Source of the DNA: Treponema sp.
GTDB taxonomy: Bacteria > Spirochaetota > Spirochaetia > Treponematales > Breznakiellaceae
Direction: 5' to 3'
Assembly (NCBI GenBank): GCA_009787835.1
Contig: WQSN01000006.1
Span: 23,538-87,537, forward strand
DNA: 64,000 nucleotides
Part shown: positions 54,345 to 58,577 of the stretch, one piece after another
How the letters are laid out: every line of letters begins with the position of its first letter
Numbering within the stretch: the stretch's first letter is position 1
Position numbers and translations under genes: made by a program
Notes under the pieces: model-generated
Seen by the model: only the letters and a program-made list of their open reading frames with translations
Database searches by the model: none
What the model was told of the DNA's origin: nothing

Positions 54345-55004
54345 ATGAAATTAACCATGTCAAAAGACGTTCAGGATAGGATAGAGAGGGAAGGTATTAT
54401 CGCTGTTCTGGAAATTGAATCCGAGCAGAACGCGGTTCCGCTGGCGAAGGCGCTTTTGGAAGGCGGGGTTACTGTTATTGAACTGGCTTTACGCACGCAG
54501 GCAGCGCTCCCTTCAATTGTACAAATCGCGCAGGAAGTTCCGCAAATGTATATGGGGATTGGAACAATAATTGAAAAGGGGCAGGCTGAAACGGTAAAAA
54601 AACTTGGCGTCCGTTTCGGCGTATCTCCGGGACTTAATCCTGAAATTGTAAAGGAAGCTATCGCGGTGGATTTGCCGTTTGCACCGGGAATCGCGACGCC
54701 CAGCGAGCTTGATCTGGCCATAACGCTTGGATGCCGCCTTGTTAAATTTTTTCCGGCGGAAGGCATGGGCGGATTGGCGTTTTTAAAAAATATAAACGGC
54801 CCATACAATCATTTAGGCGTTAAATACATCCCCCTTGGCGGCATTACTCCGGAGAATTTGCATGGTTACGCGCGATTCAAGCCTGTGCTGGCAATCGGCG
54901 GTAGCTGGATAGCAGCCAAGGAACTTATTAACGCGCAAAATTGGAAAGAAATAACCAGAAGGGCAAAAGAGGCCAGGGGTATCTGGCAAAGTTACCGATC
55001 ATAA
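54345..55004 (+). CDS. eda: KDPG/KHG aldolase
   Basis: EREGIIAVLEIESEQNAVPLAKALLEGGVTVIELALRT, VKFFPAEGMGG, PLGGITPENLHGY. Confidence 0.94.
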   Translation: MKLTMSKDVQDRIEREGIIAVLEIESEQNAVPLAKALLEGGVTVIELALRTQAALPSIVQIAQEVPQMYMGIGTIIEKGQAETVKKLGVRFGVSPGLNPEIVKEAIAVDLPFAPGIATPSELDLAITLGCRLVKFFPAEGMGGLAFLKNINGPYNHLGVKYIPLGGITPENLHGYARFKPVLAIGGSWIAAKELINAQNWKEITRRAKEARGIWQSYRS

Positions 55005-55159
55005 AACCAAAATCCAATCAACAACCTCGCCTCAAGTAATATACTCGATCTGCAGGAAAATCACTCCTAAGGGGTAATTAATTTCTGAAACATTTTCTTT
55101 ACGGGAAATTAACCATGAATTTGGTCTTTAATAGTGATACTTTAACTATAAAATGAATT

Positions 55160-55165
55160 TATAAT
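55160..55165 (+). promoter_or_regulatory. Predicted -10 element of the candidate ncRNA
   Basis: Exact TATAAT, 7 nt before G55173, the first base of the closing stem; -35 weak. Confidence 0.5.
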
Positions 55166-55172
55166 GAATAAA

Positions 55173-55308
55173 GCAGGCTGCGTAAATCTCTGGCAGGGGC
55201 ATTCGGCGTGGATCGCGTATAATGCCACACCAAAGTGTGCGTTGTAGACGGTCACGGCCGTTTATGACCCTGACAGTGATTTGCGCAGTCTGCGTTTAAT
55301 TTTTTTTT
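55173..55308 (+). ncRNA. Candidate structured small RNA of unknown class
   Basis: GCAGGCTGCGTAAATC pairs with GATTTGCGCAGTCTGC over 16 consecutive bp (with G-T wobbles); inner CTGGCAG/CTGACAG, GGCATT/AATGCC, CACAC/GTGTG and GGTCA/TGACC helices; T-tract at 55300..55308. Confidence 0.6.
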
Positions 55309-55366
55309 AGATAAATGTAATAATGATATGTTTTAATTTGTACAGACTGCTTTTGCTGCTATGCAA

Positions 55367-55413
55367 AAAAAAGACCTGATCTCCTGAGCATTGCTCATAA
55401 TCAGGCCTTTTTT
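55367..55413 (-). terminator. Bidirectional-type terminator downstream of ppdK
   Basis: AAAAAAGACCTGAT ... ATCAGGCCTTTTTT, one mismatch, with inner GAGC-ATT-GCTC. Confidence 0.75.
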
Positions 55414-55447
55414 ATAAAATATTTTTATATAACCAAAAAACCTTATT

Positions 55448-55876
55448 TTATAGAACTGGTTTCTTGGGCGTAGCAGCCGGCTTCTTCACTGCTGGTTTCT
55501 TCGCGGCTGCCGGTTTCTTTGCGGCTGCGGCTTTCTTCACTGCAGGTTTCTTTGCGGCTGCTGGTTTTTTCGCTGCTGCTTTCTTAACCACAGGTTTCTT
55601 CGCAACTGGTTTTTTCGCTCCAACTGCTTTCTTTACACCGGGTTTCTTCGCTGCAGGCTTCTTCGCTGCCGCAGTTTTCTTCGCTGCGGGTTTTTTTACG
55701 GCTGCGGTTTTCTTACCTTCCGCAGTTTTCTTTGCTACGGGTTTTTTTACCGCAGGCTTTGCAGATGTTACTGCCATTTTTTTGTCCCCCTTTGCAGGTT
55801 TTTTTCCGCCATTCACCTTGGCAGAGACGGGTTGACCAGTCTTCGCAGGTTCCCCTCCCTTTTTTTTATTGACTAT
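55448..55876 (-). other. Lys/Ala/Pro-rich histone-H1-like C-terminal extension of PpdK (142 aa)
   Basis: IVNKKKGGEPAKTGQPVSAKVNGGKKPAKGDKKMAVTSAKPAVKKPVAKK...KKPAATPKKPVL. Confidence 0.85.
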
Positions 55877-58543
55877 TTTATTTCCGGAATTGTTTATAAC
55901 CGCTTGCGCGCCTGCAAGACGCGCTAACGGTACCCGAAATGGTGAACATGATACATAGCTGAGGCCCGATCTATAACAGAAATCTATAGATGCAGGATCT
56001 CCGCCGTGCTCTCCGCAGATCCCAATCTTGAGATCCGGCTTTGTTTTTCGTCCTTCTTCAATAGCGTGTTCTACTAACGCTCCGACTCCGTTTTGATCTA
56101 TTGTCTGGAATGGTTCATCATCCAGAATATTTTTCTGCAGATAAATCGGCAGGAATGACGCGACATCATCCCGGCTGAAACCAAATGTCATCTGCGTAAG
56201 ATCATTGGTTCCAAAACTGAAGAAGTCTGCAAACTCCGCAATGTTTCCTGCGCGAATTGCCGCACGTGGAACTTCGATCATCGTTCCTATAGATATCGGC
56301 ACATTTACCCCTGCTGCTTTAAATATTCTTTCAAGAATCTTTTCTGTTCTTGGACGAAGGACTTTAAGTTCTCTCGGTGTGACAACAAGGGGGATCATTA
56401 TTTCAGGATGCACCGGAATCTTTTGCTTTGCGCATTCAACTGCGGCAAGAGCGATTGCTTCAACCTGCATGTCATAAATTTCAGGATATGTAATGGCTAA
56501 ACGGCAGCCGCGATGACCCAGCATCGGATTGCTTTCAATAAGAGTGCCGATTTTTGCGGTTAACTTTGCCGGATCAATATTCAGGTGAGATGCGAGTTCA
56601 TCAATTTCTTCTTTTATGTGAGGTACAAATTCATGAAGCGGCGGATCCAGAAGCCTGATTGTTACAGGGCGTCCTTCCATTGCTTTGAAAATTCCCAGGA
56701 AATCTTTTTGCTGCAGGGGAAGAATTTTTTTAAGCTGTTTCTTCCGTTCTTCTTCGGTATCCGCTACAATCATTGCGCGGAAGTGAATAAGTTTTTCTTT
56801 GTCAAAAAACATGTGCTCTGTGCGGCAAAGTCCGATGCCCTGCGCGCCGAAATCAAACGCGCGTTTCGCGTCTTCCGGCTGATCCGCGTTGGTTCTGACA
56901 TTAAATCCTTTAATCTTTCCGCGGACTGAAGCTGCGCGCACACTGTCGCACCACTCAAGGAAATTTTCCATATCATCGGAGAATGTCGGCGCGACAAGAG
57001 GCAGTTTTCCGTCGTATACATCGCCTGAAGAACCGTCGATGGTGATCCAGTCGCCTTCTTTATAAGTTTTACCGCCGATTTCAACATTACCGCCCGCCAT
57101 TACAATTACGCTCTTCGCTCCTGCGACACACGGAGTGCCCATGCCGCGCGCGACTACTGCCGCGTGGCTTGTCATGCCGCCTTTTGATGTAAGAATACCC
57201 TGCGATACAACCATTCCGCCGATATCTTCAGGGCTTGTTTCCTTGCGAACCAGCATTACCTTCTCGCCTCTTTCGTGCCAGGCTTCCGCGTCTTTCGCGG
57301 AAAAAATAATTCTTCCTGTAGCAGCGCCCGGAGACGCGTTCAATCCTCTTGTAAGCGATTTCGCCTGTTTTCTCGCCTGCGCGTCGATCATCGGATGAAG
57401 CAGCTGATCAAGATGGCCTGGTGTTACGCGCAATATCGCGGTATTTTTATCGATTAAACCTTCGGCTACCATATCTACAGCACATTTTACCGCCGCAGTT
57501 CCGGCGCGTTTGCCGTTACGTGTCTGCAGTATGTACAGAATTCCCTGTTGTACCGTAAATTCCATGTCCTGCATGTCTCTGAAATGTTTTTCAAGTTTAT
57601 TTTTAATTCCGATTAACTGTTTATAGATGACGGGATTCTTTTTTTCAAGAGTGGAAATTCTTTCCGGCGTTCTGATACCGGCGACAACATCTTCTCCCTG
57701 CGCGTTCATTAAATATTCACCGTAGAATTCATTAACGCCTGTGCTTGGATCGCGGCTGAAACAAACGCCCGTTCCGGAATCATCGCCGAAATTTCCGAAC
57801 ACCATTGATTGAATATTTACCGCAGTTCCTAAAAGACCGCGGATATCATTAATCTGTCTGTATTTAATCGCCCTTTCATTCATCCATGAACCAAAGACAG
57901 CGTTAATGGAACCCCAAAGCTGTTCAAGCGGTTCCTGAGGAAAATCTTTTCCGGTATGTTTTTTTACAATTACTTTGTAGTCACTGACAAGTTTTTCCAA
58001 ATCCGCGGCTGAAAGAGCGGTATCAAGTTCTACTTTTTTATTTTTTTTAATTACATCAAGGGCTTCTTCAAAATGATCATGATCTACGCCCATTACAACA
58101 TCACCGTACATCTGAATAAATCTTCTGTACGCATCCCACGCAAAACGCGGGTTGCCAGTTTTATTTGCAAGTCCTTTAACAGATTTATCGCTCATCCCAA
58201 GATTAAGGATTGTATCCATCATGCCAGGCATGGATACTGCCGCGCCGGATCGCACAGAAACCAAAAGCGGATCATTCGGATCGCCAAGTTTCTTTTTCAT
58301 TACCGATTCAAGTTTTTTAAGACCGGCTTCCACTTCTTCTTTAATACCTGCAGGATATTTTTCCTTGTTCTCATAATAAGAAGCGCAGACGCCCGTAGAA
58401 ATTGTAAAGCCCGGTGGAACAGGAATTCCAAGATTGGTCATCTCGGCAAGATTTGCGCCTTTGCCTCCCAATTCATTTTTCATTTTTGCATCTCCTTCAG
58501 CTTTTCCGTTGCCGAAGAAATATACATTTTTTTGTTTAGCCAT
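55448..58543 (-). CDS. ppdK: Pyruvate, phosphate dikinase with C-terminal histone-H1-like tail
   Basis: GGKGANLAEMTNLGIPVPPGFTIST, GGMTSHAAVVARGMGTPCVAG, GICGEHGGDPASIDFC; start at MAKQKNVYFFGNG behind GGAGG. Confidence 0.95.
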   Translation of the reverse strand: MAKQKNVYFFGNGKAEGDAKMKNELGGKGANLAEMTNLGIPVPPGFTISTGVCASYYENKEKYPAGIKEEVEAGLKKLESVMKKKLGDPNDPLLVSVRSGAAVSMPGMMDTILNLGMSDKSVKGLANKTGNPRFAWDAYRRFIQMYGDVVMGVDHDHFEEALDVIKKNKKVELDTALSAADLEKLVSDYKVIVKKHTGKDFPQEPLEQLWGSINAVFGSWMNERAIKYRQINDIRGLLGTAVNIQSMVFGNFGDDSGTGVCFSRDPSTGVNEFYGEYLMNAQGEDVVAGIRTPERISTLEKKNPVIYKQLIGIKNKLEKHFRDMQDMEFTVQQGILYILQTRNGKRAGTAAVKCAVDMVAEGLIDKNTAILRVTPGHLDQLLHPMIDAQARKQAKSLTRGLNASPGAATGRIIFSAKDAEAWHERGEKVMLVRKETSPEDIGGMVVSQGILTSKGGMTSHAAVVARGMGTPCVAGAKSVIVMAGGNVEIGGKTYKEGDWITIDGSSGDVYDGKLPLVAPTFSDDMENFLEWCDSVRAASVRGKIKGFNVRTNADQPEDAKRAFDFGAQGIGLCRTEHMFFDKEKLIHFRAMIVADTEEERKKQLKKILPLQQKDFLGIFKAMEGRPVTIRLLDPPLHEFVPHIKEEIDELASHLNIDPAKLTAKIGTLIESNPMLGHRGCRLAITYPEIYDMQVEAIALAAVECAKQKIPVHPEIMIPLVVTPRELKVLRPRTEKILERIFKAAGVNVPISIGTMIEVPRAAIRAGNIAEFADFFSFGTNDLTQMTFGFSRDDVASFLPIYLQKNILDDEPFQTIDQNGVGALVEHAIEEGRKTKPDLKIGICGEHGGDPASIDFCYRSGLSYVSCSPFRVPLARLAGAQAVINNSGNKIVNKKKGGEPAKTGQPVSAKVNGGKKPAKGDKKMAVTSAKPAVKKPVAKKTAEGKKTAAVKKPAAKKTAAAKKPAAKKPGVKKAVGAKKPVAKKPVVKKAAAKKPAAAKKPAVKKAAAAKKPAAAKKPAVKKPAATPKKPVL

Positions 58544-58577
58544 TATTTTTCCTCCATTAGGTTTCATGAATTAATAT

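Follow-up and report, generated by a model that had tools for sequence, protein, structure and literature searches.

Introduction

Small dispersed repeats of bacteria are usually defined by their ends. REP and REPIN sequences are intergenic hairpin repeats processed as single strands by a Y1 (RAYT) transposase, and ERIC elements are imperfect palindromes with insertion variants. ERIC/IRU has been described as a 127-bp intergenic repeat present in many copies, whose transcripts form long stem-loops, while CIR of Caulobacter and Brucella is built of two hairpin arms and a linker (PMC2229807). The BOX, RUP and SPRITE elements of pneumococcus are likewise small dispersed repeats with a strong predicted RNA fold (PMC3049150). 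The present analysis concerns a segment between eda and ppdK in a 64,000-nucleotide stretch of DNA from Treponema sp. (the window), which an earlier note had put forward as an orphan structured RNA. With a probability of about 0.7, it is a truncated copy of a clade-specific, non-autonomous, dispersed small hairpin repeat family of the general kind of ERIC, BOX, RUP and Correia.

Results

The 121-nt segment at 55173-55293 (plus strand) forms a long imperfect hairpin and is one copy of a dispersed repeat family, as indicated by its fold, its own-genome copies and a covariance model score of 155.2 bits. Its fold is genuine: the minimum free energy (MFE) is -72.2 kcal/mol, whereas shuffled sequences average -39.95 (z -9.35) and none of 200 folds as well, and the complementary strand folds far worse (-50.5 kcal/mol). 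Much of the earlier description proved accurate: sequence and folding bear out ends paired over 16 consecutive base pairs, wobbles included; an exact TATAAT (55160-55165, plus strand) does stand 7 nt ahead of the stem and nine T follow the segment (55300-55308, plus strand); and there is no open reading frame of at least 40 aa overlapping 55173-55293, in keeping with the claim that it holds no convincing one. It had also been described as multibranched, which is wrong, since the MFE and centroid structures of 55173-55293 coincide in a single unbranched imperfect hairpin with internal loops. The failure to match a known RNA family was reproduced, as a scan of the 64-kb window against Rfam 15 returned 0 matches at the gathering threshold, HEARO included, and a permissive scan of 54900-55500 gave nothing near a gathering score.

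The sequence is far from an orphan. BLAST with 55150-55310 as query gave 42 matches in its own genome, and a covariance model (R1, built from A1, a plain MAFFT alignment of 19 copies) marked 32 distinct places, each palindromic hit being counted once and a few possibly being assembly duplicates at contig ends, so that both BLAST and the covariance model put the family at about 30 copies in this genome. Twenty of 40 genus genomes carry R1 matches (1-26 per carrier, both strands counted), and under stricter filters matches were found in 11 of 199 genomes of the order, all of them in one family (f1) and distributed over 5 genera. The exact conserved-core (apex) pattern was found in 37 stretches among 85,462 species genomes, all in metagenome-assembled genomes (MAGs) of Treponema/Spirochaetaceae except for one contig. 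That contig (L161) is binned as Bacteroidales and holds a single occurrence, reflecting either transfer or mis-binning. Phage and plasmid collections gave no match to the repeat. The family is restricted to one clade, that of termite-gut Treponema relatives; the termite-gut origin of the carrier MAGs is presumed from isolate codes and general knowledge. Copies are mostly intergenic and their number varies between related genomes. This multicopy nature had gone unnoticed in the earlier note, and the family, which has no match in Rfam, is previously uncatalogued.

The flanking signals are not features of the family, and a dedicated promoter and terminator find no support. Across 45 copies, an upstream TATAAT with at most one mismatch was found at 30, against 27 of 45 in a mirror control, and T5 runs numbered 9 against 10. 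The TATAAT of the window lies in an AT-rich flank without a -35 partner and is not a promoter of the whole family, the region having 1 promoter-like site against a mean of 1.8 in its shuffles, and the T9 tract is local sequence outside the repeat. It is distinctly improbable that the copies are small regulatory RNAs that are transcribed independently, every copy having a promoter and terminator of its own, and that act in trans through the apex. A strong strand-specific fold, a conserved unpaired apex and the TATAAT and T9 beside the window copy would suit such RNAs; however, the promoter and T-tract signals do not exceed the mirror control in the 45 copies, copies lie in either orientation relative to neighbouring genes, the locus is not conserved, and no family dominates among 148 neighbouring proteins (neighbours are diverse and span 200 families).

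The genes eda and ppdK, which flank the window copy, are convergent, and copies in general occupy convergent, tandem and divergent gaps, the convergent class being about twice the divergent (an approximate figure, as the reading frames were called mechanically). BOX, RUP and SPRITE are also over-represented between convergent genes (PMC3049150). A bidirectional terminator, or an mRNA 3'-end stem-loop, between eda and ppdK would accommodate the convergent gap, the stem and the T9 tract, as well as the frequency of convergent gaps in the family, and the T9 tract could make this copy terminator-like. However, tandem and divergent gaps also hold many copies, T-tracts are not enriched, and a separate compact hairpin between A and T tracts is already present at about 55365-55412, which makes this account improbable; termination at the window copy may be a local side effect and not the reason for which the family exists.

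Nor is the locus conserved. Thirty ppdK loci were read, that of the present genome and 29 of other congeners, several of them shortened by contig ends, and a copy near ppdK was found in the present genome and in one other (G062), where its orientation is reversed. As eda was not found at any other congener ppdK locus retrieved, the idea of a conserved RNA gene in the eda-ppdK interval fails, and the segment cannot be regarded as an orthologous gene of this region. Identity of congeners at ppdK is about 80% or lower and synteny is lost there, so that no empty site can be read. At its C terminus the ppdK product (55448-58567 in the window) has a long tail rich in lysine, alanine and proline, with weak similarity to the histone H1-like HC2 (33.5 bits, under the curated cut-off of 40).

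What the copies share is the apex. A consensus of 62 copies from several genera defines an apical core, cGG.GTg.a...GccAcgCCAaAGcgTgCGT...gccAC..CC (55204-55260, plus strand), in which GccAcgCCAaAGcgTgCGT is the best-conserved part; within it the apical hairpin GCCACACCAAAGTGTGCGT (55224-55242, plus strand; consensus GCCAcgCCARAGcgTGCGT), with its CCARAG-type apex, is the most conserved segment, and the apex motif is found in 101 of 110 copies when these are read in the chosen orientation and in 0 in the reverse. The ends differ by lineage and share no sharp boundary. In one congener with ten copies (G022), the apical core is common to all while the outer stems differ: the mid and apical helices are 79% identical, whereas the outer stem is 94% paired at a pairwise identity of just 49%, the flanks standing at 30%. 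Two-sided changes occur there at 25 of 25 main-stem pairs, and the whole structure holds 95 two-sided cells against 25.4 in shuffles (0 of 500 shuffles), these numbers being slightly affected by one of the 11 alignment rows, the reverse strand of locus L218. Alignments made with the covariance model are fitted to the structure and so biased towards it; the plain MAFFT alignment A1 gave 33 two-sided cells against 13.3 shuffled, with at most 3 in slid controls. The covariation that had been called for in homologous copies is thus present, in A1 and in G022, and it is strand-specific. The family fold consists of a long stem with a conserved bulged hairpin at its tip; it is kept on one strand, whereas the stem sequence varies freely. 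Two-sided changes could also arise from template-directed quasi-palindrome correction without selection; however, such correction by itself would not favour G.U over A.C.

Such a preference was found when each 5' arm was aligned to the reverse complement of its 3' arm with an equal penalty for every mismatch. In 50 dereplicated copies there were 67 G.U against 12 A.C (p about 2e-10), the counts coming from the hairpin repeat family alone and copy orientation being set mainly by the apex motif. A strand-symmetric process predicts equal numbers, so that the ratio marks one strand. Taken together with the two-sided changes, it is most simply read as selection for one strand in folded form, and given the wobble RNA would be favoured over single-stranded DNA. 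Another reading is transcription-linked C-to-T change on the displaced strand, which would imply transcription too.

Comparison with relatives shows the window copy to extend beyond the hairpin. Homology to five other copies (L012, L013, L014, L018 and L027) begins at 55062-55104, so the stretch at 55062-55162 (plus strand), a Type-A left arm comprising a spacer and the final bases of a lost partner hairpin, belongs to the repeat and not to eda. The well-preserved relative L014 lies in a 416-bp own-genome unit whose two hairpins are divergent and whose inverted ends measure 16 bp, and the counterpart of 55062-55162 sits between those two hairpins. On the right, detectable homology ends at 55294-55300 (plus strand), where the outer end AATTATTGAATATTCTGTGGGTCAAGTTTAG of other copies is absent. 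By these alignments the window copy is a truncated repeat (55062-55300), its partner hairpin and the outer ends on both sides being lost. Close pairs in several genomes (G000, G173, G035 and Ncb351) run minus then plus, with their 5' sides facing. In some own-genome copies (e.g., L023, L020 and L024-L026) one fixed internal point is occupied by an insert of about 48 bp (CAAGAGGGGAACCTTCGCCTGTCTG...GGTTGAGGTTT); it also occurs alone elsewhere in this genome and is a small repeat family in its own right, nested in the hairpin repeat. One own-genome copy has a hairpin insert in its apical loop.

In its numerous scattered copies, mainly intergenic, non-coding and about 100-200 bp long, and in its palindromic, strongly folding sequence, the family agrees with an element of MITE or ERIC type. 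Under a classical MITE model, a DDE transposase would act on terminal inverted repeats and the hairpin would be a by-product of a full-length palindrome. This would agree with the dispersed intergenic copies and with the inverted ends found in some lineages, of 15 bp on the 182-bp units of G173 and of 16 bp in the present genome. However, these terminal repeats are lineage-specific and lost in the window copy, conservation is lowest at the ends and extends across genera at the apex, the family ends without a sharp common boundary, and a palindrome acting as DNA alone predicts no G.U excess. No transposase or other gene was spanned by matching own-genome ends in the loci examined. A classical MITE is accordingly somewhat unlikely.

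Searches for a mobilising enzyme gave no general partner. The Y1 transposase (PF01797) had 0 matches in the own genome at E 1e-5 and did not positively co-occur with the repeat across the genus, being present in 7 of 20 carriers and 11 of 20 non-carriers, and a REP/RAYT system was rejected on both grounds. Reverse transcriptase (PF00078) had 0 own-genome matches, on which retroelement-type spread was rejected. IscB and TnpB are not among the 25 commonest families of the 148 neighbouring proteins. Insertion sequences are often lost from MAG assemblies. Genes for PD-(D/E)XK nucleases were observed between copies at two loci, one (PDDEXK_13 / REase-ARP; L110:1752-2732, contig C2 of G003) between two divergent copies and one, a nuclease family transposase gene (PDDEXK_2; L233:398-1354, contig C182 of G021), between two same-direction copies; as general partners both were rejected, because neighbours span 200 families. 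No empty site or autonomous partner was found, and the listed units showed no consistent target duplication, so that mobility is read from copy number and distribution. The family is multicopy, mostly intergenic and not fixed at this locus.

An integron attC site, a recombination site in the form of a strand-specific single-stranded DNA hairpin, resembles the repeat in size, strand specificity and conservation of structure over sequence; sites longer than 100 bp have been proposed for ancestral Treponema integrons (PMC3607928), and the spacing of copies on contig C36 of this genome is cassette-like. However, conservation is apical, the stem base lacks the R''/R' core and the 3' end reads GTTTAAT and not GTTRRRY, most copies are single and dispersed, and the integron integrase profile (TIGR02249) gave 0 of 1 matches over the cut-off in the own genome, a MAG that may be incomplete, the best match being an Xer-like 411-aa protein under that cut-off. 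The attC reading is scarcely credible and was rejected on the R-box, the RYYYAAC / GTTRRRY core being absent at the stem base, and on the integrase. On contig C36 (L059:8830-10460, G000), short lipoprotein-like genes alternate with the hairpin and with a conserved GACAGYCAC...GTCGTTAGCTGC motif at a cassette-array-like spacing of about 1.1 kb, with no integron integrase over the cut-off.

Discussion

The earlier interpretation stands in part: a conserved fold, strand-specific covariation and the lack of a known RNA family are supported, whereas the orphan status, the multibranched shape and the dedicated promoter and terminator are not. A genuine conserved fold had been seen, but a truncated copy of a dispersed repeat was mistaken for an orphan RNA gene, and the case serves as a warning that a lone, well-folded intergenic hairpin is not to be called an RNA gene without a genome-wide check for copies.

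For the dispersed repeat family proposed here, copies may spread in trans by way of some enzyme that would recognise, in RNA or single-stranded DNA form, the conserved apical hairpin; recognition through the apical hairpin is suggested by the conservation of the apex and not of the ends. Where a copy lies inside a transcript, which may happen at the window locus by read-through from eda, it would fold into a strong stem-loop and could thereby shield or terminate the mRNA. It is possible, though rather doubtful, that the family represents a new class of mobile element, with copy-specific stems, which is recognised on one strand by its conserved, structured apical hairpin (a "handle" of RNA or single-stranded DNA) and moved by a novel enzyme. 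What is unusual is the conservation of the apex across genera alongside stems that are rewritten in each copy without loss of pairing, and the wobble asymmetry suggests that selection acts on a single strand in its folded state. This raises a testable question, namely what binds the CCARAG-capped bulged hairpin, and a covariance model for this family is ready for use.

Like ERIC/IRU, the Treponema repeat is intergenic, multicopy and forms a long stem-loop (PMC2229807); however, it belongs to another host clade, and its outer stems differ in each copy while the apex is conserved, the comparison with ERIC being by description. With BOX, RUP and SPRITE it shares small size, dispersion, a strong fold and a preference for convergent gaps (PMC3049150), but it has no boxA-B-C modules. 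The present repeat shows two-sided covariation and an asymmetry of wobbles, whereas the strings "covar" and "compensat" are absent from the main text of PMC3049150. REP and REPIN are hairpin repeats of intergenic regions as well, but the Treponema hairpin is much longer and no Y1 transposase was detected in its own genome. The twin-hairpin units recall CIR in having two arms joined, although in the Treponema family single-hairpin copies are common. As in the integron attC site, a single-strand hairpin keeps its structure while its sequence varies, but here conservation lies at the apex instead of the base.
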